Below, piece after piece: positions 2,427 through 63,528 of a DNA stretch of 64,000 nt (positions are counted from its first letter, which is position 1; each line of letters starts with the position of its first letter). The translations under genes were made by a program, and so were the position numbers. The notes below the pieces were generated by a model. It made no database searches and was not told the origin of the DNA. It was given only the letters and a program-made list of their open reading frames with translations. Source of the DNA: a virus; IMG/VR virus record IMGVR_UViG_3300022682_000042, positions 18,542-82,541 of that record; one strand, 5' to 3'.

Positions 2427-2538
2427 TGTGTTGATGTTGGCTGAGGAGGTTGGGGGTCAATTGCCGACTATTGCCGGGGTTGAGGTAGGACGGGCTTTGA
2501 CTTATGATTTGATACAATTTCTGAATAGGAATTGTTGA
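2317..2538 (+). CDS. Small ORF overlapping the end of the glycosyltransferase
   Basis: 73 codons starting inside the glycosyltransferase 3' end in another frame. The second half, beyond 2426, reads LPTIAGVEVGRALTYDLIQF and could be the true coding part. No clear ribosome site is seen and no family is recognised. It may be a spurious overlap. Confidence 0.25.
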   Translation: MAKRKRKSVGTSRPEKLSVLTAQAPMGSERLKLKPGNVLMLAEEVGGQLPTIAGVEVGRALTYDLIQFLNRNC

Positions 2539-2624
2539 CCGAAATAGGTTTGGTGATTATCCGAATCATAAATTTGTACCCTATACAGCCAATATTCTTC
2601 GTGTCAATCTCTGTTGCTTAAGCC

Positions 2625-2727
2625 ATATAACGCCCGCCAATAAGCCGCGCCAACGGGACTTGGTTTATAGTTGAGCCTTACAGCCAGAGGCACGTGTCTG
2701 GCGTCGGCTTTATTGGCTTTGTTAGGT
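2625..2727 (-). repeat. attC-like recombination site 1
   Basis: Read on the minus strand it begins with ACCTAAC (R'', consensus RYYYAAC, 2727-2721) and ends with GTTATAT (R', 2631-2625). Inside are imperfect inverted arms: GCCAATAAGCCG at about 2636-2647 faces CGGCTTTATTGGC at about 2705-2717, with an unpaired extra base as expected for attC folding. The stop codon of the cassette gene at 2722-2961 lies in R''. Length about 103 bp. Confidence 0.75.
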
Positions 2728-2961
2728 TGCGTCTTGGCTATCTTGCATTGCCAGATACAGCCCTAGCACAACTTTGTCCATTACCATTTCAAGATCGGTT
2801 TGCGACCAGATTGCAAACCCTTTTTGCTTGTCAAAAATAGCCTGATTTATTTTGCGACGTTTTAATGGCTTACCTGTTCGCTTATTTAGACCGTAGTCAA
2901 AATCTTCCGTAAGGCACTTTAATATTTTTTTCTTTGCTAACCGTATATCTGATTTGTTCAT
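2722..2961 (-). CDS. Integron cassette 4: small basic protein
   Basis: 79 aa, Lys/Arg-rich N-terminal half (LAKKKILKCLTEDF, KRTGKPLKRRKI) and a more hydrophobic C-terminus. No family recognised. ATG lies only 4 bases after the R' heptamer GTTAGGT (2972-2966), too close for a normal Shine-Dalgarno, as in many cassettes. TAA lies within attC site 1. Expression probably depends on the cassette promoter near 4090. Confidence 0.65.
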   Translation of the reverse strand: MNKSDIRLAKKKILKCLTEDFDYGLNKRTGKPLKRRKINQAIFDKQKGFAIWSQTDLEMVMDKVVLGLYLAMQDSQDAT

Positions 2962-2965
2962 AGCA

Positions 2966-3051
2966 ACCTAACGCCCGCCAATGAGCGGCGGGCTACTGTG
3001 ATTGTTTGTGATGGCCAGAATCAACCGTCCGCTCCATTGGCATTGTTGGGC
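2966..3051 (-). repeat. attC-like recombination site 2
   Basis: Minus strand: GCCCAAC (R'', 3051-3045) and GTTAGGT (R', 2972-2966) both match the RYYYAAC / GTTRRRY consensus exactly. Inner arms GCCAATGAGCGG and CCGCTCCATTGGC pair with one extra base. Length 86 bp. It is the best-formed of the four sites. Confidence 0.8.
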
Positions 3052-3199
3052 GGATGCATACCGGATAGCAATGCTTCTGGTATGATGCGCCCTGAGCGTT
3101 TGGTTGAAAAAAATACATTTTCTGGCCTGCCTCGATAACCGCACCGCATTTGTCACAGGTCGTTATGTAATCGTTGACAACTGGCTCAAAATTAAACAA
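2993..3199 (-). CDS. Integron cassette 3: small zinc-finger-like protein
   Basis: 68 aa from TTG at 3199, just after AGAGGTGG. It contains TTCDKCGAVIEAGQKMYFF followed by HCYPVC, a CxxC...HCxxxC arrangement that probably binds one zinc ion. The C-terminal 20 residues are read through attC site 2, so the frame ends inside the recombination site. No function can be assigned. Confidence 0.6.
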   Translation of the reverse strand: MFNFEPVVNDYITTCDKCGAVIEAGQKMYFFQPNAQGASYQKHCYPVCIRPTMPMERTVDSGHHKQSQ

Positions 3200-3219
3200 G
3201 TTCCACCTCTAAGCTATCC

Positions 3220-3345
3220 GCCTAACGATCTGAGTTGTGGCGATTGCGGGTTGGCTCCACAACTATGATTTACAGAATATTTGCAGCCCCAACCGACCAC
3301 AATTAAAAGCAAGATTAGCAATTCGCTACGAACGACTTGTTAGCT
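3220..3345 (-). repeat. attC-like recombination site 3
   Basis: Minus strand: AGCTAAC (R'', 3345-3339, one base off consensus) and GTTAGGC (R', 3226-3220, exact). Arms GTGGCGATTGC (about 3237) and GCAATTCGCTAC (about 3318) pair with an extra base. Length 126 bp. Site 4 carries almost the same arms. Confidence 0.75.
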
Positions 3346-3573
3346 ACCGTGACGGCTGGCATAGACACGCAAACACCGCTTGCAGGCATTGGCTAACGGT
3401 ACATTTATGGTCATCCGGTAGCCATTAGAATATTTTCCGCTGGTATCAAAACCACGTCCGCAAATTGGCGCACTAATATGTCCGGCTTCAATTAAATTTT
3501 GGCGGCTTTTACCTTCGCCAGCCTCATAAACCAAATGTAACTTTTGACCACCTTTGATTTGCATATAACGCAT
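3340..3573 (-). CDS. Integron cassette 2: hypothetical protein
   Basis: 77 aa from ATG at 3573, chosen because TGGAGG lies just upstream and the preceding attC R' ends at 3594. The protein begins MRYMQIKGGQKLHLV and has two or three cysteines (APICGRGF, ACKRCLRV). Its TAA stop at 3340-3342 lies inside the R'' heptamer of attC site 3. It could be a short zinc-binding protein; no family is recognised. Confidence 0.65.
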   Translation of the reverse strand: MRYMQIKGGQKLHLVYEAGEGKSRQNLIEAGHISAPICGRGFDTSGKYSNGYRMTINVPLANACKRCLRVYASRHGS

Positions 3574-3593
3574 TTTGGCCTCCAAAAGAAGGT

Positions 3594-3718
3594 AGCTAAC
3601 TATTGAGTTGTGGCGATTGCGGGCCAGCACCGAACCGCAACATAATTGATAGATACGCTGGCAAGACTATTTCAAAAATCGCTGTGGTAGCAATTCGCCC
3701 ACCAACGATTTGTTATTA
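3594..3718 (-). repeat. attC-like recombination site 4
   Basis: Minus strand: TAATAAC (R'', 3718-3712, AAC conserved only) and GTTAGCT (R', 3600-3594). Inner arms GTGGCGATTGC (about 3610) and GCAATTCGCCCAC (about 3690) match those of site 3. This is the weakest of the four in its outer heptamers, but length (125 bp), arms and position fit. Confidence 0.65.
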
Positions 3719-4005
3719 CGGGGTTGGATTACAAAGCCGTATTTCTCTTGCCTCACCCGTTCTTTTTCAACCCAAAGGGCGCGGACATTAGCCACTTTCT
3801 GGTTATCAATTTCACCATCTGTAAATAATATCCCTTCGGGGTCATCGCGGTAATCCCACACCCCGCCAAGTTTAACTTCGCCTGTTTCTCTATCAAAAAC
3901 AACTTCAAGGGCCAACCCTAACGGATGAAAGAACTGCCGGTTCGCCTCTTGCAAAAAACCCTTCTCTTGAAATTCTTTTATGTTTATACGTTTGATTTCT
4001 GGCAT
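3667..4005 (-). CDS. Integron cassette 1: hypothetical protein
   Basis: 112 aa from ATG at 4005 with GGAGG five bases upstream. It contains FHPLGLALEVVFD and GGVWDYRDDPEGI, a small conserved family that I recall from phages and mobile DNA without a function. The frame runs into attC site 4. As first cassette it is next to the Pc-like promoter and should be the best expressed. Confidence 0.7.
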   Translation of the reverse strand: MPEIKRINIKEFQEKGFLQEANRQFFHPLGLALEVVFDRETGEVKLGGVWDYRDDPEGILFTDGEIDNQKVANVRALWVEKERVRQEKYGFVIQPRNNKSLVGELLPQRFLK

Positions 4006-4029
4006 CTTGCCTCCGATCTTAAAACAAGT

Positions 4030-4036
4030 ACATAAC
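4030..4036 (-). promoter_or_regulatory. Candidate attI insertion point
   Basis: GTTATGT on the minus strand is the only GTTRRRY-like heptamer between the first cassette gene and the recombinase and would mark the 5' end of cassette 1. It is two steps from consensus, so this is tentative. Confidence 0.4.
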
Positions 4037-4059
4037 AATATTATAACATTACACCTTGC

Positions 4060-4088
4060 TTGATATTATACCCAACCTATGCTATAAT
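4060..4088 (+). promoter_or_regulatory. Promoter of the recombinase gene
   Basis: TTGATA (4060-4065), 17-base spacer, TATAAT (4083-4088). ATG at 4096 is 7 bases after the -10 box, so the mRNA is predicted to be leaderless. Confidence 0.75.
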
Positions 4089-4093
4089 GTCAA
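4065..4093 (-). promoter_or_regulatory. Pc-like cassette promoter (perfect consensus)
   Basis: Minus strand TTGACA (4093-4088), 17-base spacer, TATAAT (4070-4065). It fires into the cassettes. Its -10 box touches the -35 box of the opposite recombinase promoter and its -35 box abuts that promoter's -10, so the two should compete for polymerase. Confidence 0.8.
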
Positions 4094-4095
4094 AT

Positions 4096-4758
4096 ATGAA
4101 ACCATCAAATGAATTACAACAAAAATTGGACAGTGCCTTTGCCGGCCTGTCCAAGAATACCGTCCGGCTTTACTCTCACTGGATTATTGAGTTGGCCAAA
4201 TTCCACGCGCCGCTCAAACTATCCGAGCTTGAACAATGGTATATTGACCAGTTTTTGGCCTGGATGGTCCGGCCCGGTGAATACTCCCGATCTACTACCA
4301 ATCAGGCCAAAAGGGCGATCCGTCTGTTTTATGAGTCGCTCGGCAGGCCGGTCAATGTACAAATGGTATCGACCCGGCACAAATCCCGACCAGTCGATAC
4401 CATCAGCCGGGAGCAGGTCAAGGAGGTTTTGTCCCGGTTGCCACTGCTGTACCAGATGCTGGCTGGCGACATTTACCACAACCTGACCCGACCCGGCGAG
4501 GTCGTCAAGCAGTCGAGGTCCAGGGGTGGATATACCGCCGTCTCTACCCTAACCAATCACATCAAACAAGCCGGTAAGGAGGCCGGGATTATCAAGCCGG
4601 TAACAGCGATAACACTATATCAGTCCGGCATTGTTCATCGGCTTGAGGATAACGGACCGGTGGCAGTAATGGAACTAACAGGGCTAAAACCAAGTACAAT
4701 TCAGAGGTACTTGAGACAGACTAAAAATAGTGATATAATAAATAAAAAGGGGTTTTAA
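4096..4758 (+). CDS. Diverged tyrosine recombinase (integron integrase-like)
   Basis: 220 aa. Residues 5-85 form an N-terminal SAM-like core-binding domain (LSKNTVRLYSHWIIELAKFH, FLAWMV, TNQAKRAIRLFYESLG). Residues 100-210 align with a shortened catalytic domain: the first Arg is kept (TRPGE, R132) and the Tyr is kept (TIQRYLRQ, Y205), but the HxxR box reads ITLYQS (172-177), the LLGH box reads LTGLK, and the lysine hairpin is missing. IntI proteins are about 320-340 aa, so this is over 100 residues short. It is either inactive, a regulator, or a minimal recombinase. It reads away from the cassettes, as intI does. I chose ATG 4096 because the promoter's -10 box covers earlier starts. Confidence 0.6.
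   Translation: MKPSNELQQKLDSAFAGLSKNTVRLYSHWIIELAKFHAPLKLSELEQWYIDQFLAWMVRPGEYSRSTTNQAKRAIRLFYESLGRPVNVQMVSTRHKSRPVDTISREQVKEVLSRLPLLYQMLAGDIYHNLTRPGEVVKQSRSRGGYTAVSTLTNHIKQAGKEAGIIKPVTAITLYQSGIVHRLEDNGPVAVMELTGLKPSTIQRYLRQTKNSDIINKKGF
4711..4739 (+). promoter_or_regulatory. Promoter for the second glycosyltransferase
   Basis: TTGAGA (4711-4716), 17-base spacer, TATAAT (4734-4739), inside the 3' end of the recombinase gene and 18 bases before the ATG at 4758. Confidence 0.65.
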
Positions 4759-5927
4759 TGAAAACTATTGTAGTTAGCCATCAACCGACTTTTTTACCCA
4801 TTATCCGGCAATTGTCTCAATTAGGATGGACCATTATCACCCTGACCCAACCCTATGCCCAGGAATTGGGCAATCAGGGAATTGAGGCCAAACCTCTGGG
4901 GGCCTTTGGGGGCGAAGGACAAGACTCGGCCTTTGCCTGGGCCGGGGCCTGTATCTCGGCCCTGTCCGGCCTGGAACTGAACGGGGCCGGGCCGGGGCCG
5001 ATAGGTTGGCTCAGACAAAACTCAGTCCCCTTTTACTATCCCAGATTGGCCGACATGGGGATGATCGTTGTCTGTCTTGAAAATCTCAAGCCTGATTTGG
5101 TCTTGCTACATAATGATGTAGAACCGGCGACCAGGGCCGTAGCTCTGTGGGCCAAAACCAAGTCGGTTCCTTGTCTACACATCCCTCACGCTATTTACCA
5201 ACTGGTCAACCGGGGGCCTCTAGGGACCGATGTCCACGACTTGGTAACGGCCTCGAATATCGGGGTGGCCGGCCCTTTCCAGCGGGTCTGGTATGAGGCT
5301 TGTGGGGCTGAACCGGCTAATGTCAGGGAGACCGGCCTGCCTCAGTTCGATGGGTGGGCCACCCGGCAATCGGGGGACCAAAAGAAGGCCAAGAAATTGT
5401 TGGGCCTTGACCCAAACAGGCCGGTAGTAGCTTACGGGGGAACCTGGCCCCAGGGGACCAATGCCGGGGGCCTAAATGATGAATGGCAATTTGTCTACTT
5501 CTCTTTTCTTGAGGCAGCCAACCGGCTTGGCTTTCAGGCTGTAGTCAAATGTCATCCCAGGGGAGGAAAACAGAATTGGGACTGGCACGTGCAACAGGCA
5601 ACCGAGGCCGGCCTGGATGGAGTTGTAACCCCATCTCACCTGGAACAAGTGATAGATGCCTCTGACCTATTTCTGGCCCCCTACGGCTCTAATGTATTGC
5701 TTGAGGCGGCCCATAATCCGGCCTGTCGACTGGCTACGACCCACGGCTATAAGGGAGACAGGGCCGTGGAAAAAGTGCCGATAGACCCAGACGGGATGGC
5801 CGAGGCCCTGGGTAAATTATTGACCGAAGAACCCAGGCCAACCGGGACCTTGTTGGCCAAGTACCTGGGAGACCGGGATGGGTTAGCCTGGCAACGGGTA
5901 GTAGGGTATTGTGAGGAGTTGGCCTGA
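4758..5927 (+). CDS. Glycosyltransferase or glycerophosphotransferase-like (GT-B)
   Basis: 389 aa. A first Rossmann strand (TIVVSHQPTFLPIIRQL), a central IPHAIYQLV, and a C-terminal nucleotide-binding half with VVAYGGTWPQGTN, VVKCHPRGG and DLFLAPYGSNVLLEAA. This is the layout of CDP-glycerol transferases, polysialyltransferases and UDP-sugar transferases. It probably modifies a surface or virion glycan. ATG overlaps the recombinase stop (TAATG) and follows AAAAAGGGG. It pairs with the 1128-2426 transferase around the integron-like element. Confidence 0.7.
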   Translation: MKTIVVSHQPTFLPIIRQLSQLGWTIITLTQPYAQELGNQGIEAKPLGAFGGEGQDSAFAWAGACISALSGLELNGAGPGPIGWLRQNSVPFYYPRLADMGMIVVCLENLKPDLVLLHNDVEPATRAVALWAKTKSVPCLHIPHAIYQLVNRGPLGTDVHDLVTASNIGVAGPFQRVWYEACGAEPANVRETGLPQFDGWATRQSGDQKKAKKLLGLDPNRPVVAYGGTWPQGTNAGGLNDEWQFVYFSFLEAANRLGFQAVVKCHPRGGKQNWDWHVQQATEAGLDGVVTPSHLEQVIDASDLFLAPYGSNVLLEAAHNPACRLATTHGYKGDRAVEKVPIDPDGMAEALGKLLTEEPRPTGTLLAKYLGDRDGLAWQRVVGYCEELA

Positions 5928-6403: not shown

Positions 6404-6748
6404 TTATTCTAAGGGAAAAGATAACTGAGACCAGTTTCTCGGTCTAGTAATAACAATAGATTTTTGTTGGTTATCTGGTAAGTTTGTCAATAAAAAGCTT
6501 GACAGTTTGTTGTCAAGATATTTATTTAATTGTTGCGCTAAAAACAAGCTAATATTATCAACAGTATATGAAATTCTTATCAAAATAAAATCATATTTTT
6601 TAGCAAAGTTGTTTTTGATTTGGTCATTTTCTTGAGTTTTTTGTAGGCCATCTTTTCCCCCAAATTCTGCAACTGGTTCAAAGTGTTGCCGCCCATCATA
6701 TTCAATTAAGAACTGTAATTTCCCAATTCTGTAATTACAAAGGGCCAC
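6404..6748 (-). CDS. Truncated Vsr/EDxHD-like homing endonuclease
   Basis: 114 aa from GTG at 6748. FLIEYDGRQHF, FGGKDGL, DQIKNNFAKKYDFILIRISY follow the pattern of small Vsr-fold endonucleases in phages, where 'IEYDGxQHY' carries the metal-binding acid. The usual N-terminal zinc ribbons are missing and the frame is blocked by a stop 12 bases upstream, so it looks like a remnant. It is AT-rich, opposite to the flanking tail genes, and so probably an invader. Confidence 0.55.
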   Translation of the reverse strand: MALCNYRIGKLQFLIEYDGRQHFEPVAEFGGKDGLQKTQENDQIKNNFAKKYDFILIRISYTVDNISLFLAQQLNKYLDNKLSSFLLTNLPDNQQKSIVITRPRNWSQLSFPLE

Positions 6749-24978: not shown

Positions 24979-25707
24979 ATGGGGAAAAACAGTTCTATCG
25001 AGTGGACCGATTCAACTGTAAATTTTTGGCAAGGCTGCCAGAAGGTTAGCCCCGGCTGCAAAAACTGTTATATGTACCGGGACAAGAAACGGTATGGCCA
25101 AGACCCGGCCACAGTAGTCAGGTCTAGCCCGGCCACATTCAATAAACCGAAGAAGTGGAAAGACCCGGCCCTGGTCTTTACCTGTTCCTGGTCGGACTTT
25201 TTCATCGAACAGGCTGACCCCTGGCGGGATGAAGCCTGGGACATTATCAGGCAGACTCCTCATTTGACTTACCAGATTTTGACAAAGCGGCCCGAACTGG
25301 TCAAGGACCGGTTGCCCGATGATTGGGGCGAGGGGTGGCCCAATGTCTGGCTTGGGGTTAGTATTGAGACTGAGGATTATTACTGGCGGATTATGGCTAT
25401 CGAGGATATTCCGGCAATGGTTAAATTTGTCAGCGCTGAACCCCTGTTAGGGCCATTATCCAACCTGTACAGTTATTTCCCGGTTATTGATTGGGTAATT
25501 ACCGGGGGGGAAAGCGGGCCAAAGTACAGGCCGGCCAACCTGGATTGGTTCCGGGAAATTCGGGATGATTGCCAGAAGTGGGGAGTTCCGTTCTTCCATA
25601 AGCAACATGGAGGGAACCGGAAGGTCGATGGAGTCTGGGGAGGCCGGATGTTGGACGGGCGGGCCTGGGATGAGATGCCGGAAGTTAGAAGTCTTAAAAA
25701 TACTTGA
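24979..25707 (+). CDS. DUF5131 (phage Gp37/Gp68) protein
   Basis: 242 aa after AAGGAG. SIEWTDSTVNFWQGCQKVSP and GCKNCYMYRDKKRYG at the start, SWSDFFIEQADPWRDEAWD in the middle, and WVITGGESGPKYRP near 175-190 are diagnostic for DUF5131. The family resembles radical-SAM-like barrels with a Cys triad, but its reaction is unknown to me. Common in phages near replication genes. The stop overlaps the -35 of the next promoter. Confidence 0.85.
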   Translation: MGKNSSIEWTDSTVNFWQGCQKVSPGCKNCYMYRDKKRYGQDPATVVRSSPATFNKPKKWKDPALVFTCSWSDFFIEQADPWRDEAWDIIRQTPHLTYQILTKRPELVKDRLPDDWGEGWPNVWLGVSIETEDYYWRIMAIEDIPAMVKFVSAEPLLGPLSNLYSYFPVIDWVITGGESGPKYRPANLDWFREIRDDCQKWGVPFFHKQHGGNRKVDGVWGGRMLDGRAWDEMPEVRSLKNT

Positions 25708-43498: not shown

Positions 43499-43537
43499 TT
43501 GTAAAAAGTGTTGTAATGTGTTAAACTGTAGCAAAGC

Positions 43538-43576
43538 AAGGCCGGGAGATGACCCCAGGGTTATCCCGGCCTTTTT
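43538..43576 (+). terminator. Intrinsic terminator in the portal leader
   Basis: AAGGCCGGGA / TCCCGGCCTT stem with a 16-base loop and five T, 16 bases before the ATG at 43592. Like those at 6978 and 12600, it lies between promoter and gene. Confidence 0.75.
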
Positions 43577-43591
43577 CTTTGTGAGGACAAA

Positions 43592-46078
43592 ATGACAGAA
43601 TATTTGACGGCCAAAGAAGTCAAAGAGCGATACGGTTTTGATAGGTCCAGTCTACTCCGATGGGAGGATGCCGGCCAACTACAGGTTGACCGGACCCCAT
43701 CGGGGGGCCAAAGACGTTACCGGCCGGAGGCCATTGAAAAAGCGATGATTGGGGGTGGTCGGGATATCCCGACTGCCAAACAAGATGACAGGCCAACCAG
43801 ACAACGGCCCAGGGGGGCTATGTTTGCCGAACTGGGAGCACCGGGCCTGACTCGTTTTGGTGGCTCGGTTTTAGAGGAACGTTTATCTGAACTACAGGGT
43901 CATAAGGGGTGGCGGCGATACAGAGAAATGAGGAGCAACGATGCGGTTATTGCCGCCGTCTTCTTCGGCCTGGTCAACGCTCTCAAGCAGCCCTCAGTCA
44001 GGGTCAAACCGGCCTCAGACAAAGACCCTGACAAACGGGTGGCCGAGTTCGTGCAGTCCTGCCTGGATGATATGTCGTTTACCTGGAACGATACGATGGA
44101 CCTGATTCTCAACCCGGTCTTTGAACAAGGTTTTGCAGTGCCGGAAATAGTCTATAAACGCCGGTTGGGGCCGGACGATGAGACCCCATCCCGGTATAAT
44201 GATGGCCTGATAGGGTGGCGCAAGTGGGCGCCGAGGCCAGCCGAAAGTTTGGCCGACGGCAACGAATGGATATTCGATGCCAATGGGGGGGTCCGGGGCA
44301 TTAACCAACAATTCGATTATGACATCACCCCCTCGACCCCGATAGTCCCTAAAGAGGTTCCGGGCCTCAACCCCAATGAGACCCAACCAGCCCTGGCCTC
44401 TATTCCCATTGAAAAGTTACTTCACTTTCGGACTACCCTACATCCGGCCAATACACCGGAGGGGATGTCAATATTACGGCCAATGTGGCAAAGTTACTGG
44501 ATGTCTCAAAATATGATGGAGATTGAAGGTATCGGGGTCGAACGGGACTTGGGTGGTATCCCGGTCATCTATCTGGGGCAGGGGACAACGTTAGGCGATG
44601 ACCCGAATAGCGACTGGTCAATTTCCAAAGACATTGTGACCAATATCCGGGTAGACGAACAACACGGGGTAGTCATCCCCCACCCCAAATTGGGGACAGT
44701 TGGTAATACCGGCCAGGGAGTGTTATTGGAGCTATTGTCAACCGGCGGCCGGCGGCAGTGGGATGTAGGAAATATCATTGATCGGTATGATAAACGGAAA
44801 GCCCTGTCAGCTCTGGCCCAATTCATTATGTTGGGGATGCAACAGGTGGGGAGTTATGCCCTATCCAGCCACCAGGGAGATTTATTTGTACTGGCAGCCC
44901 AGGCCCATTTGCAAGCCGTGGCCGGGGTCATCAATCGGCACGGAGTCAGACGGTTAGTTGAGCTAAACCCCTTCCCCGGTATGACCGGCCTGCCCGAAGT
45001 GGCCTTTTCCCCGGTTGGGGTTCCCAAGTTGGAAGAATTGTCTGAATTCGTGAATAAGCTAGTTGAACGGGAAGTGTTGACCCCGGATCAAGAGTTGGAG
45101 CGACATCTCAGGCAGGTAGCCGGGTTGCCTCAGAAGCCTATCCAGGTTATGGATGATACAATAACCGAAACGGACCGGGTGGAACGGGACGCCGAACGAA
45201 CGGCCCTGTTACTCCGCCGGATAAGTCTGGCCGTGGACCCGTTAGAAGAGTTGGGGGCCATCAATCCGGGAGAGGGAGCAGAACTATTGAGGCCCCTGGT
45301 TGAGGAACTAAAAGATAGCCTGCGGGGTGACCCAACTTTACCCGGTATCGGGGAGGACCAGTACAGTGATATGGTGCAGGCGGCCAAACTCCGGCTCAAG
45401 TACGACCGGGCAGCCGGGGTCAAGTTAGAGAAAGCGGCCCGGCAGTACGTTGATCGGTTAAAAAAAAAGTCGGAGTTGGACCCGGTAGCCAAGCAAGGGG
45501 GGCCGGGGTTGGCTATCGTGGAGGCAGCTGAGAGACGGGCCTTGGAACTGTGGCAGGAACTCGAAGAGAGATTGGCCGGGGATGAAATACCGGCCCTGGC
45601 TGTTCAGGAATGGCGACAGGACCTTGAGGCCGAGTTAGCGGCAGCCATAGAAACGGCCTGGTATGCCGGCCGGCAGTCAATGGGAGAAGACCCGGACGAA
45701 CTGGATGAGGGGGGCTTGGTTGGGGGCCTGGTCCTGGATATGTCAGGATACTTGAGCCGAATGGCCGATGAGATGACCGGGGCTTTTAGCCTGATGCCAA
45801 CCAGGGATGAAATATTGGTGGGCCTGGGGGCTTACTATGGCCGGATGTTGATGTATCCTGGGGAGGCGTGGGCAGCTTACAATGAGGCCAGAGTTTATAA
45901 CCAACCACCGGATAGCCTATGGGAATGGTCAGGGCCGGACGATGACCGAACATGTGTTACTTGTTCCAGAGAGGTTAGGGCCGGACCGAGGCCATTGTCT
46001 GAAATAACGGTTTTGCCGGGTAGAGATACGGAATGTCGGACCAATTGCCGACATTTGATAGTTCCGGTCAGGAGATAA
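43592..46078 (+). CDS. Portal protein fused to MerR-type HTH and Mu-F-like domain
   Basis: 828 aa in three parts. Residues 1-55: MerR/excisionase HTH (YLTAKEVKERYGFDRSSLLR, PSGGQRRYRPEAIEKAM). Residues about 85-500: Mu gp29-like (DUF935) portal, with RSNDAVIAAVFFGLVNAL, FEQGFAVPEIVYKR and LLHFRTTLHPANTPEG. Residues about 600-828: head morphogenesis, ending in DDDRTCVTCSREV and CRTNCRHLIVPVRR. Portal and F-like proteins are usually separate. The HTH suggests contact with packaged DNA or terminase. Confidence 0.8.
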   Translation: MTEYLTAKEVKERYGFDRSSLLRWEDAGQLQVDRTPSGGQRRYRPEAIEKAMIGGGRDIPTAKQDDRPTRQRPRGAMFAELGAPGLTRFGGSVLEERLSELQGHKGWRRYREMRSNDAVIAAVFFGLVNALKQPSVRVKPASDKDPDKRVAEFVQSCLDDMSFTWNDTMDLILNPVFEQGFAVPEIVYKRRLGPDDETPSRYNDGLIGWRKWAPRPAESLADGNEWIFDANGGVRGINQQFDYDITPSTPIVPKEVPGLNPNETQPALASIPIEKLLHFRTTLHPANTPEGMSILRPMWQSYWMSQNMMEIEGIGVERDLGGIPVIYLGQGTTLGDDPNSDWSISKDIVTNIRVDEQHGVVIPHPKLGTVGNTGQGVLLELLSTGGRRQWDVGNIIDRYDKRKALSALAQFIMLGMQQVGSYALSSHQGDLFVLAAQAHLQAVAGVINRHGVRRLVELNPFPGMTGLPEVAFSPVGVPKLEELSEFVNKLVEREVLTPDQELERHLRQVAGLPQKPIQVMDDTITETDRVERDAERTALLLRRISLAVDPLEELGAINPGEGAELLRPLVEELKDSLRGDPTLPGIGEDQYSDMVQAAKLRLKYDRAAGVKLEKAARQYVDRLKKKSELDPVAKQGGPGLAIVEAAERRALELWQELEERLAGDEIPALAVQEWRQDLEAELAAAIETAWYAGRQSMGEDPDELDEGGLVGGLVLDMSGYLSRMADEMTGAFSLMPTRDEILVGLGAYYGRMLMYPGEAWAAYNEARVYNQPPDSLWEWSGPDDDRTCVTCSREVRAGPRPLSEITVLPGRDTECRTNCRHLIVPVRR

Positions 46079-51014: not shown

Positions 51015-51703
51015 CCGATGAAGTTGTAACCGTTTTACCTGAGACCAATGGCCTGGAATACAATGACCCTCCTCGGCTGGTCTGGGTTCCGGTCAGGGAG
51101 GCAGTTGGATTATTGTGGGCCGGGAATCCTAAACTCCACTCGATTGGAGATTTAGTTCAGTCCATTGAACGATATGGCCTGCAAGAATTACCTAAATTTG
51201 ACGCCAACCTGGAAAACAGGGGTGGGGGCCGGGGAGCGATTGTAGCTGGCAATGGCCGGGTCGAGGCTTTAGCCTGGATGGAACAGGATGGCCGGGATTT
51301 ACCCAGGGGAATAGCCAAAGGACCGGATGGGGCCTGGGCCTTGCCGGTCCTGGCCGGGGTAGATCAACCTTCGGAGGAGATGGCGGCGGCCTACGCGGTG
51401 GACTCCAATAACCTGACTTTGGCCGGGGGTGGTTTTGATGCTTTCGACATGGCCCGACTGTGGGATGAAGAGGCTTATGTGGCCCTGGTAGAGTCGTTGG
51501 GGGATATGAGGCCGGTCACGGTAGACGGGGAGGCTTTGGATGCCTTGATAGGAATGAATGGAAATCAAAACAAAAAAACAGAACCGATAGATATACTACC
51601 AGAATACGCTATTTTGATTGAGTGTGACAGTGAACAGGCACAGGTTGTTGCATTGGAAGAATTAGTGGGGTTGGGCTATCAATGCCGAGCTTTAATATCA
51701 TAA
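51011..51703 (+). CDS. ParB/sulfiredoxin-fold protein
   Basis: 230 aa. LVWVPVREAVGLLWAGNP, SIERYGLQELPKFDANLEN and IVAGNGRVEALAWMEQDG are the ParB nuclease-fold motif (GNGR in place of GExR). Such proteins accompany DNA-modification enzymes in phages. Overlaps the next gene by 22 bases, so a joint function with the ATPase-GNAT protein is likely. Confidence 0.7.
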   Translation: MTDEVVTVLPETNGLEYNDPPRLVWVPVREAVGLLWAGNPKLHSIGDLVQSIERYGLQELPKFDANLENRGGGRGAIVAGNGRVEALAWMEQDGRDLPRGIAKGPDGAWALPVLAGVDQPSEEMAAAYAVDSNNLTLAGGGFDAFDMARLWDEEAYVALVESLGDMRPVTVDGEALDALIGMNGNQNKKTEPIDILPEYAILIECDSEQAQVVALEELVGLGYQCRALIS

Positions 51704-52836
51704 GACAAGTTGACATAGAGCGGACGCCGCGAGTAATGCAACTGGAAGGCATCTTTGACGTTGCGCCGTCACAACGAAGTGAAGAGCGATGGCAAGGCGA
51801 GATTGACTTGCCAGACGATTGGAATATTGGCGTTATCGTTGGTCCGTCTGGCTCCGGCAAAACGACATTGGCACATGAGCTATTCCCTGATTTCATTGTC
51901 AATTGCTACGATTGGCCGGATAGCAAGAGTATTGTTGACGCCTTCCCAGATGGCTTGAGTATCAAAGATATTACCGGCTATCTGTCATCTGTCGGGTTTT
52001 CTTCCCCGCCGTCGTGGTTGCGTCCGTTTCGGGTATTGTCGAATGGTGAGCAATTCCGGGCGACGCTGGCCAGGGCTTTGGCCGATGAGCGAGAGTTGAT
52101 TGTCATAGATGAATTTACCAGTGTCGTTGATAGGACTGTGGCTCAGATTGGTAGTGCGGCATTATCCAAAGCAATCAGGCGTAAGGGCAAAAAGTTTATT
52201 GCCGTTTCTGTGCATTATGACATTCTGGATTGGCTTGAGCCGGATTGGGTGTATCAGCCTCACACAGGCGAATATTACACCGGGAGGTATCTTCACCGGA
52301 GACCGGAGATTAAGCTCAAAGTTAAACGGGTTCATCACTCCGCTTGGCGAATATTCCGGCAGTATCATTATTTAGACACCGGCCTGAATACGGCAGCGGT
52401 TTGCTTTTGCGCTTTTTACGATGGGAGGCCGGTGGCGTTTACGGCAGCGTTGCACTTCCCGCACCCAAAGGCAAAGAATATCAAACGGGAACATCGGACG
52501 GTTTGCTTGCCGGACTTTCAAGGTGTGGGAATTGGGAACGCTCTGAGTGATTATGTTGGAGCGATGTTTAAGACGGTTGGGTATCGGTGGCAGTCTCAAA
52601 CGAGCAATCCAGCAATGATACACGCTAGAAATAGGTCGAAAAATTGGGCGATGATTGCGAGGCCAAATAGAAAATCTAAAACTATGCCTAAGCAATCATT
52701 TTCTGGAAAAAGAAAGGGTACGTCTGGCCCAGGGGCCGGACGTACCGGAGGATTAACAAAACGATTGCGAGCCACATTTGAATATGTTGGTTCGGCACTT
52801 GATAAACAAGAGGCAATAAAAATTATGAGTGATTAA
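51682..52836 (+). CDS. ABC ATPase-GNAT fusion (Mom-like DNA modification)
   Basis: 384 aa. Residues 45-200: ABC ATPase with GPSGSGKTT (54-62), signature LSNGEQ (119-124) and LIVIDEF (139-145). Residues 210-340: GNAT-like domain with WRIFRQYHYLDTGLNTAAVC, GRPVAFTAALHFPH and LPDFQGVGIGNALSDYVGA (acyl-CoA loop). This resembles the Mu Mom protein family, which acylates adenine in DNA. Low GGCC and different codon style show it came from elsewhere. Confidence 0.65.
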   Translation: MPSFNIIRQVDIERTPRVMQLEGIFDVAPSQRSEERWQGEIDLPDDWNIGVIVGPSGSGKTTLAHELFPDFIVNCYDWPDSKSIVDAFPDGLSIKDITGYLSSVGFSSPPSWLRPFRVLSNGEQFRATLARALADERELIVIDEFTSVVDRTVAQIGSAALSKAIRRKGKKFIAVSVHYDILDWLEPDWVYQPHTGEYYTGRYLHRRPEIKLKVKRVHHSAWRIFRQYHYLDTGLNTAAVCFCAFYDGRPVAFTAALHFPHPKAKNIKREHRTVCLPDFQGVGIGNALSDYVGAMFKTVGYRWQSQTSNPAMIHARNRSKNWAMIARPNRKSKTMPKQSFSGKRKGTSGPGAGRTGGLTKRLRATFEYVGSALDKQEAIKIMSD

Positions 52837-60879: not shown

Positions 60880-63528
60880 ATGCCCAATGAAGCCTTATTT
60901 CTAACAGAGATAGCGGACCGGTTTGAGCGGGGGGCCAAACCTCCGTTGCCATTGCACGACCCACCGGCCCTCCTCCGGGCTTTGGGCCTGACCCCCTGGT
61001 CAGATGTCGAAGATTTCAGGGGTGAGGATAAAGTCTCAACCATTGCCAACCTGGTCTTGTCCCCCACTCCCCCCAACCGGTTCACGGTAGTTGAGTCCGG
61101 TAACGGGGTAGGTAAGTCGGTCACAGCGGCGGCCATTGCTTCAGCCTGGATGGCTCAGGGAGACCCGGCGGCCATTGTCACCATAGCGCCCTGTTATGAT
61201 GACCAAACCGAAGTTTTAACAAATGTAGGTTGGAAAAAGTTTATTGATCTTGATGATCAAGACCAGGTAGCTTGCCTGGATAAGTCAGGCCGAGTCCATT
61301 ATGAGGTTCCTCAAGAAAGATTTGTATTTCAATATCAGGGTGAGATGATTGGATACCAGAACCAACTGGTTGATTTCTTGGTTACTCCCAATCATCGGGT
61401 TTTTATGGACACGTTTATTAACCGTAAACCAGAAGATTTCAAGGGTAAGGTTATTCCGGCCAGTGAAGCCTTTGACCGAAATGGTCGGTTCCGAAAAATA
61501 GCTGATTGGGATGAAGGGGAAGAGTCAATATCCCCTGATTGGGCAGAGTTTTTAGGGTTTTGGTTTGCCGAAGGGTGGGCTGAGTTTAATCCAAAAGCCA
61601 GAAAATACCGAATAACTCTGACTAACTCAGATGACAAATATGTAGAGTGCCTTTTAAGGCGAGTTGGGTTATGGGATATAACGAAAGTTTATCCTAAACA
61701 CAAAAAGCCACACGTTAAAGATTATACAATTCATCGCAAAGAATTGGCTGCTATATTTGTCAAGTATGGTAAGGCTCATACTAAACGAATACCTGATTCA
61801 ATCAGAAATGGGTCAAAGAAAATTATTAGAGCTTTTCTCAAAGGGTTCTGGGTAGGTGATGGAACAACAGATAATAATGGTAGTACCAGTTTGGCTACAG
61901 CCGGTTATGGTTTAGCCGGAGACTTGCAGGAGCTATATCTCAGGGTAGGAGTTATCGCTTCTGTTCTGACGTGTATCAGTCAAGTCGGCAATGAGTATTA
62001 CACAGTTAATGTTTGGAAAAGTCGGGGTAAATTTCCTCATGTTCACAAGCGGGAATATCAGAAAAAACATTTTCGGTCTGATGACTATAACGGTTGGTAT
62101 AAAAAATACTATGATGGACCAGTTTATTCGGTACAGGTATCAGATTATAACAAAGGGGATGGTAAGGGGGGAATAATTCTGGTCCGGCGTAATGGCAAGT
62201 ATGTTTGGAGTGGAAATACCCACAGTCAGGTCAATAATGTTCTATGGCGATATATCCGGTCGATGAAAAATGAGGTATCGGCCATTCCCGGCACAGTTTT
62301 TGAGACCCCCCGGTGGGACTGTTCCCCCACCCATTACGGCGTGGGCCTCTCTCCCAAACGGGCCAGTGCCGAGGACCTGCAAGCCCTTTACGGTTACCAT
62401 AATCCCCGTCTCCTGGTTATCCTTGATGAGGCCCCCGGCCTGCCCCGGTTACTCTGGGAAGCCGTTCAACGGCTGGTCACCGCCCCCGGCAACCGTATAT
62501 TGGCCCTGGGTAATCCACTCCAACAGGCCGGGCCTTTCTGGGAAGCCTGTAACCGGCCTGACTTGTGGAACTACGTTCACATCAGTTGTCTTGACCATCC
62601 CAACGTAGCCCTAAAAAGAGAGGCCATTCCCGGCGCTACCGGAGTCGAATGGGTCCGGGAACGAATAAAGGACCACTGCACCAGGGCCGCCCCCGATGAC
62701 CCCAACTCCTTCGAGTTCGAGGGCCAACACTACCAACCCGATGCCGTTTTTCAAAGTATGGTCCTGGGCAAAGCCCCGACCGAGGCCACCGACCAGCTTA
62801 TCAGTCTGGCCTGGGTCGATGGGGCAATGAGTTGGACAGCTGACCCTGACCCATCTGAACCGGTGGTATTATCCCTTGACCCGTCCAGGGTAGCCCACGG
62901 AGACCCGGCGGCCCTTATTTGCCGGCAAGGGGGCCTGGTCCGGTGGGTTCGCCGCCGCCGCCCCTCCACCCCAAACCCGACCGATGAACTGGCCGGCTGG
63001 CTCTACTCAGAACATCACTCCTCCGGCTCTTCCCGGGTGTTTATTGAGGAGACCGGTATCGGGGCCGGCGTGGTCGATAGGGCCAGGTCCCTCGGCCTCC
63101 CCGTTATTCCCGTCTCCCCTTCCTCCGGGGCCTCTAAACGCAATCTGGCCAACAAACGAGCCGAATGTTGGTGGAACCTCAGAAATGCCCTACAAACCGG
63201 CTCTATCTCCCTTCCCCAGGATGACTTGCTAATGGCCGACCTTATCACCCCCAAATATTATTTCGACGGTCAGGCCAGAGTTATCATTGAGCCTAAAAAC
63301 AAAATAAGGGACCGGTTGGGCCGGTCCCCCGATTCTGGCGATGCTCTGGCTATCTCCTTCGCTCTCCCTACCCGTATTCCTCCCCCTGACCAATCAAACG
63401 TTGGCCTGGCTGCCCCTTCCCGCTGGGCCTCAGTCGCCAGCCCCACCCAGGAAACAGGTCAGAAAATGTCAGGGCCTTCTCGGTGGCACGCCGGGGGAGT
63501 TCGGAATAAGGGCCGATTCAGGAGATAA
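60880..63528 (+). CDS. terL: Terminase large subunit with intein
   Basis: 882 aa before splicing. Extein: Walker A SGNGVGKS (73-80), then after the intein THSQVNNVLWRYIRSM, Walker B LLVILDEAPGL, and nuclease motifs VVLSLDPSRVAHGDPAALI, FIEETGIGAGVV and DSGDALAISFALP. It packages DNA into the head. Residues 105-446 are the intein. The joined extein reads IVTIAPTHSQV, the normal ATPase motif of terminases, so splicing restores the protein. Spliced length 540 aa. Confidence 0.9.
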   Translation: MPNEALFLTEIADRFERGAKPPLPLHDPPALLRALGLTPWSDVEDFRGEDKVSTIANLVLSPTPPNRFTVVESGNGVGKSVTAAAIASAWMAQGDPAAIVTIAPCYDDQTEVLTNVGWKKFIDLDDQDQVACLDKSGRVHYEVPQERFVFQYQGEMIGYQNQLVDFLVTPNHRVFMDTFINRKPEDFKGKVIPASEAFDRNGRFRKIADWDEGEESISPDWAEFLGFWFAEGWAEFNPKARKYRITLTNSDDKYVECLLRRVGLWDITKVYPKHKKPHVKDYTIHRKELAAIFVKYGKAHTKRIPDSIRNGSKKIIRAFLKGFWVGDGTTDNNGSTSLATAGYGLAGDLQELYLRVGVIASVLTCISQVGNEYYTVNVWKSRGKFPHVHKREYQKKHFRSDDYNGWYKKYYDGPVYSVQVSDYNKGDGKGGIILVRRNGKYVWSGNTHSQVNNVLWRYIRSMKNEVSAIPGTVFETPRWDCSPTHYGVGLSPKRASAEDLQALYGYHNPRLLVILDEAPGLPRLLWEAVQRLVTAPGNRILALGNPLQQAGPFWEACNRPDLWNYVHISCLDHPNVALKREAIPGATGVEWVRERIKDHCTRAAPDDPNSFEFEGQHYQPDAVFQSMVLGKAPTEATDQLISLAWVDGAMSWTADPDPSEPVVLSLDPSRVAHGDPAALICRQGGLVRWVRRRRPSTPNPTDELAGWLYSEHHSSGSSRVFIEETGIGAGVVDRARSLGLPVIPVSPSSGASKRNLANKRAECWWNLRNALQTGSISLPQDDLLMADLITPKYYFDGQARVIIEPKNKIRDRLGRSPDSGDALAISFALPTRIPPPDQSNVGLAAPSRWASVASPTQETGQKMSGPSRWHAGGVRNKGRFRR
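61192..62217 (+). other. Intein with LAGLIDADG homing endonuclease in TerL
   Basis: 342 codons, Cys1 (CYDDQTEVLTNVGWKKF) to SGN before Thr. Block B LVTPNHRVF is present. Homing motifs FLGFWFAEGWAE and FLKGFWVGDGTTDN are both intact, with Asp/Glu at the expected ends. The penultimate residue is Gly, not His, an accepted but less common variant. AT-rich versus exteins, showing separate origin. Confidence 0.9.

Follow-up and report, generated by a model that had tools for sequence, protein, structure and literature searches.

Integrons are viewed as bacterial devices that are occasionally carried by phages. In the closest described systems, reported by Qi et al. in 2023 (PMC9892861), attC-bounded cassettes, among them DNA methyltransferase cassettes, occur in the genomes of virulent and temperate phages, and some temperate phages carry complete integrons. 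Because integrons and CALINs in phages have already been reported (PMC9892861), carriage by a phage is not novel in itself. The integrase of those elements is either full-length (in temperate phages) or absent (in CALINs), whereas the locus examined here contains a conserved, shortened relative of the integron integrase IntI (mini-IntI), accompanied by an attI and promoters of its own, in records without a canonical tyrosine recombinase. Measured against the open-access literature and the collections that we searched, what is new is a conserved mini-IntI, devoid of the canonical catalytic residues, as part of a phage platform.

The locus lies in a 64,000-nucleotide stretch of DNA (the window) corresponding to positions 18542-82541 of the 82,541-base IMG/VR record IMGVR_UViG_3300022682_000042. 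Genes of this record include those for a portal (phrog_113), an S78-type protease, tail proteins, and a terminase, and its major head protein (phrog_1005) is kin to those of Yua-like siphophages. As in a class 1 integron, the intI-derived gene and the array point in opposite directions, the promoters Pc and Pint are close together, attI adjoins the first cassette, and each cassette consists of an ORF and an attC (Table 1). Unlike in a class 1 integron, the promoters overlap outside the coding region, the mini-IntI start lies almost on its own -10, and canonical IntI is missing. The record shares with CALINs the lack of a full-length integrase, but an attI-like site, a Pc, and an IntI-derived gene adjoin the array, and the locus does not qualify as a CALIN.

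Table 1. Features of the integron-like locus, in window positions
Feature	Position	Strand	Description
Whole insert	2537..4757 (limits approximate)		From small ORF 2317-2538 to glycosyltransferase 2 (GT2, 4758-5927)
attC S1 (array end)	2625..2727	-	R1 27.7 bits, R2 29.9 bits
Cassette 4	2631..2971	-	ORF 2722-2961, no function assigned
attC S2	2966..3051	-	R1 31.3 bits, R2 33.5 bits
Cassette 3	2972..3225	-	ORF 2993-3199, CxxC-type small protein, no function assigned
attC S3	3220..3345	-	R2 30.6 bits, E 4.6e-5; missed by R1
Cassette 2	3226..3599	-	ORF 3340-3573, no function assigned
attC S4	3594..3718	-	R'' TAATAAC; no R1 or R2 match; full-length alignment with S3
Cassette 1	3600..4035	-	ORF 3667-4005, phrog_3954-like phage protein
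attI-like site	4030..4062	-	Crossover G|TT between 4036 and 4035
Pint-like promoter of mini-IntI	4060..4088	+	TTGATA-17-TATAAT, consensus match 11/12, near-leaderless
Pc-like promoter into cassettes	4065..4093	-	TTGACA-17-TATAAT, consensus match 12/12
mini-IntI	4096..4758 (start 4087 also possible)	+	220 aa; TIGR02249, PF13495, and 2a3v matches

An earlier note, made from the letters of this DNA alone, had described an integron-like element flanked by two glycosyltransferase genes within the block of virion genes, through which a phage could carry or exchange cassettes. The location was borne out, and the integron interpretation is supported by covariance-model matches and by relatives that lack the insert or carry other cassettes. 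Used alone as queries, mini-IntI, GT2, and the protein encoded at 120-899 retrieved no phage relatives; these were obtained by alignments of the MCP and of the neighboring glycosyltransferase (GT1). In 14 related phage contigs collected via GT1 (including L003, L005, and L006), GT1, a small ORF, and GT2 are contiguous without the insert; in the GT1 contigs, GT2 follows within a few hundred bases of GT1, usually with an ORF of 61-81 aa in between. The small ORF of the window has a shortened C-terminus and is followed by 2.2 kb until GT2. To judge from this comparison, the 2.2-kb element is an insertion. At the same GT1/GT2 junction, another contig (L033:4859-5146, plus strand) encodes a homologue of the cassette 1 protein (64% identity) without an attC and outside any cassette. 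The homologue ends at the point where the cassette 1 ORF continues into its attC; a phage gene seems to have turned into a cassette gene, or a cassette gene into a phage gene.

We searched for attC sites with two covariance models. The first (R1) was built from 48 arm pairs of attC sites that lay upstream of intI genes in integrons of bacteria, plasmids, and phages and did not come from the window; the second (R2) comprised 150 sites and permitted long loops. Over the 64 kb, the sole R1 matches at E ≤ 10 were S2 and S1, both on the minus strand, which is the orientation required by the cassettes. Over the window and the remaining 18.6 kb of the record, R2 matched S2, S3, and S1 and nothing else at E ≤ 10, and at E ≤ 1 it had no match in 312 kb of insert-free related phages. 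R1 scores of known sites range from approximately 25 to 73 bits, so that the sites of the window sit at the low end, and with filters off, S2 reached just 10.6 bits, as a shorter match, versus 31.3 bits with default filters. Rfam gave no credible match for these sites, and the S1/S2 arm pattern had no match in IMG/VR.

Of the four attC-like sites originally proposed, S1, S2, and S3 are therefore recognized by the covariance models, all on the same strand, where a complete integron has at least two; S4 is recognized by neither model. The proposed RYYYAAC / GTTRRRY ends likewise fail at S4, where R'' departs from RYYYAAC. From its alignment, S4 appears to be a degenerate sister of S3, and S4-like DNA is found in the contig G002 (85% and 82% matches). 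The description of inner arms with extra bases was accurate: S1, S2, and S3 each have two unpaired bases, six apart, on the R'' side, as known attC sites do. Single-strand folding was clearly better than that of shuffled sequences for S1 and S2 only, and at these two sites the bottom strand folded better than the top strand. The cassette array itself runs along the minus strand as the earlier note had it (2625-4035), but its stop codons fall inside R'' in only two of the four cassettes (ORFs 2722-2961 and 3340-3573), and in the other two the ORF reads through R'' and stops in the loop. Judged by codon-position GC, the cassettes have a lower GC content than mini-IntI and the phage genes. A search of plasmids gave no match for cassette 1, and PADLOC found nothing in the cassettes of the window.

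An IMG/VR search with an 18-base sequence, the core of the S3/S4 arm, matched four other contigs. G004 (70 kb) and G001 (83 kb) encode mini-IntI proteins that are 75% and 36% identical to that of the window, in each case divergent from an array (seven and three model-supported attC sites, respectively) and accompanied by overlapping divergent promoters and an attI-like sequence. Attention had been drawn to the possibility of related phages with different cassettes, and such phages exist: G004 and G001 carry the platform with other cassettes, and other relatives lack the insert. Past the G|TT, the arrays of the window, G004, and G001 all differ. A complete 422-bp cassette is nonetheless common to G004 (second position) and G001 (last position), with 86% DNA identity that starts and stops at G|TT cores, although the mini-IntI proteins of the window and G004 are each just one-third identical, approximately, to that of G001. 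The gene within this cassette (dN = 0.07, dS = 0.62) is under purifying selection. Exchange of cassettes as units is seen in this common cassette and not in the window's own cassettes. A Mom-like DNA modification protein (PF25680, 1.3e-11) is the product of the first G001 cassette, and two DNA methyltransferases lie between the attC sites of G003, in agreement with the counter-restriction cassettes described earlier for phages (PMC9892861). G002 and G003 (L235-L240) have attC arrays of the same type, and mini-IntI was not found in these two contigs. On the strength of these comparisons, we consider it highly probable that the platform is conserved in three viral contigs, with arrays that vary and cassettes that lie between G|TT cores.

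The consensus promoter reading into the cassettes, also predicted earlier, was recovered, and the Pc-like and Pint-like promoters are divergent and overlap. The Pc-like sequence TTGACATTATAGCA...TATAAT is common to the window, G004, and G001, with a spacing to TATAAT of 16 in G004 and G001. On the Pint-like strand, TATAATGTCAA(A/G)TATGAAAC likewise occurs in G004 and G001. All three contigs have TATAATGTCAA(A/G)TATG, whose position would place the mini-IntI start approximately at the expected transcription start. The promoter into the array that characterizes a complete integron is represented here by a predicted Pc that matches the consensus at all 12 positions and is conserved. DNA similarity among the three contigs runs to ATATTG|TTA and then ends; this is the G|TT at which crossover takes place in a GTTRRRY core, and the sequence beyond is cassette specific (TTATGT, TTAGAT, and TTAGGC). 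It is by comparison alone, as a block conserved in three contigs that ends at G|TT, that the attI of a complete integron is identified here.

The tyrosine recombinase gene said to read away from the array is only partly what was claimed: a recombinase-like ORF is present on the plus strand, but the canonical catalytic residues are missing. The best NCBIfam match of mini-IntI was TIGR02249, at 51 bits and hence below the curated cut-off of 265; its PF13495 match had an E value of 3.6e-14, and the integron integrase 2a3v was its best PDB match by sequence. With an AlphaFold model of the protein (mean pLDDT 79.6), Foldseek also returned 2a3v as the best match (E = 1.3e-7), with XerA, lambda Int, and Cre ranking lower. 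Like IntI (TIGR02249; 2a3v), mini-IntI has an N-terminal core-binding domain, followed by a C-terminal remnant. Unlike IntI, it is approximately 90 residues shorter; in an alignment with four IntI proteins, the gap falls in the region of the lysine hairpin and of the IntI-specific insertion (the ALxxKYPxA...W region), the latter being deleted. Within the catalytic set R-K-H-R-H-Y, just the tyrosine is conserved across mini-IntI members, offset by one; R135 is retained in the window and G004 only, the K160 region is deleted, and H292 is replaced by L. The HxLRH motif has become I/M/S-x-L/I/L-Y/Y/R-Q in the family (HTLRHS to ITLYQS in the window). In place of an integron integrase with a canonical active site, then, we found a protein that lacks the canonical catalytic residues and has no match to PF00589, the canonical tyrosine recombinase family, of which no member was found in any of the five records, the window's included (metagenomic and possibly incomplete). 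We infer that mini-IntI is probably an integron-integrase-derived protein without the canonical catalytic residues, with a possible recombinase role.

Mini-IntI varies least in its C-terminal half, which formerly contained the catalytic residues and which includes a block that is invariant in all three proteins (QSGIVH..LE..GP..V...TGL...TI.RY.R); this invariance could equally mean unorthodox catalysis. In a phylogenetic tree, the three mini-IntI proteins formed their own clade (SH-aLRT = 100) on the IntI side of the Xer outgroups (support of 80, with long branches); an earlier tree with a single member gave a branch length of 10 and was uninformative. Comparison of the window with G004 gave dN = 0.18, dS = 1.21, and dN/dS of approximately 0.15, a rough ratio because dS exceeds 1. 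Mini-IntI is thus under purifying selection and is not a decaying copy. The codon-position GC of the gene (0.52/0.39/0.58) resembles that of phage genes, and in the window, G001, and G004 the gene is co-oriented with the phage genes, the array being antisense. In the window and G001, its stop codon overlaps the start of the phage gene that follows. The family comprises three members, one of them very divergent; searches of 50,697 phage records and 72,556 plasmids returned no member. Neither mini-IntI nor the attC type of the window was found in 400 Chloroflexota genomes, a group picked as a host guess just because some IntI relatives lie there.

How cassettes enter the array is less certain than its anatomy. 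We lean slightly toward exchange in trans by another IntI, with mini-IntI as a regulator or accessory protein, because IntI1 is reported to have recombined phage attC sites in five of six cases tested (PMC9892861) and because the arginines and histidines of the active site are gone or not conserved in mini-IntI. Pc would express the first cassettes during infection, and the cassettes would supply small accessory and counter-defence proteins. Mini-IntI may bind the attI/promoter region and either regulate the overlapping promoters or assist; the strand exchange that loads cassettes might be the work of a full-length IntI encoded by the host or by a co-infecting element. Taken whole, with this mechanism included, the interpretation of the element as a phage-borne integron platform is somewhat more probable than even. 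Alternatively, mini-IntI may itself be the recombinase, a miniaturised IntI whose active site has been rebuilt from R143, K138 or K167, H181, R204, and Y205 and that recombines attI with attC in the phage. The gene always adjoins an attI-like site and an attC array, and cassette exchange is evident, yet the records contain no other tyrosine recombinase. It is this last point, together with the conservation of the C-terminal half, tyrosine included, beyond that of any other part, that keeps the proposal alive as an unlikely but serious possibility despite the lack or nonconservation of both defining catalytic arginines and histidines and the loss of approximately 90 residues, among them those of the lysine hairpin and of the insertion specific to IntI. 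The wider proposal, that phages act as independent cassette exchangers through a family of viral integrons whose miniaturised integrase recombines attI with attC by means of an active site invented anew, is a shade more doubtful.

Our first view was that the element is a passive CALIN with an IntI remnant, taken from a host integron and with no function kept. The lost catalytic residues, the decayed S4, and the CALINs that phages do carry (PMC9892861) agree with this view, but it was dropped once relatives were found and dN/dS was obtained: the frame is open with dN/dS near 0.15, codon-position GC is phage-like, the promoter-attI block is conserved in three contigs, and the arrays differ while one cassette is cleanly common to two of them. 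We now regard it as improbable. Just as improbable is that mini-IntI serves as a competitor or inhibitor that occupies attI or attC and blocks or biases host IntI, for example to keep the array stable; a kept core-binding domain, lost catalytic residues, and coupling to attI would suit such a protein, but the arrays nonetheless differ among contigs. An assembly chimera of a phage and a bacterial integron contig could be suspected from the metagenomic origin of the record and from the lack of the insert in related contigs. The same platform in two further contigs with phage contexts, and the overlap of mini-IntI with the beginning of the adjoining phage gene in the window and G001, make this extremely unlikely.

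A platform with a selectively maintained mini-IntI, varied arrays in dissimilar phages, and a cassette passed between two of these suggests that phages run a cassette pool of their own, counter-defence genes included. It also poses the question of whether an integron integrase that lacks the classic active site of tyrosine recombinases can still function or at least be of use.

Several further observations were made in these contigs. At least 272 IMG/VR viral contigs (loci L131-L210), counted without screening for host contamination, encode a full-length IntI relative, and many of them have attC arrays by model. G001 contains a lone S3-type attC, 84% identical to S3, at approximately 66,940-67,058 (L222:2970-3088), far from its array. 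Two genes of the window's record (43520-44248 and 70223-71377; window 24979-25707 and 51682-52836) are 76% and 94% identical to genes of G004, and the structural genes common to the two are near 23 to 31% identity; the gene pair probably reflects recent gene exchange in a shared host. A 31% GC ORF at window 6404-6748 (minus strand), flanked by virion genes, has 71% DNA similarity to Lactococcus phage genes annotated as hypothetical protein or HNH endonuclease and is probably a homing-type intruder. An IS605 OrfB/TnpB-like protein adjoins the head genes in another contig (L002:6646-7965, minus strand). Finally, the terminase ORF (window 60880-63528) has a LAGLIDADG domain in the middle of the protein, which suggests an intein.
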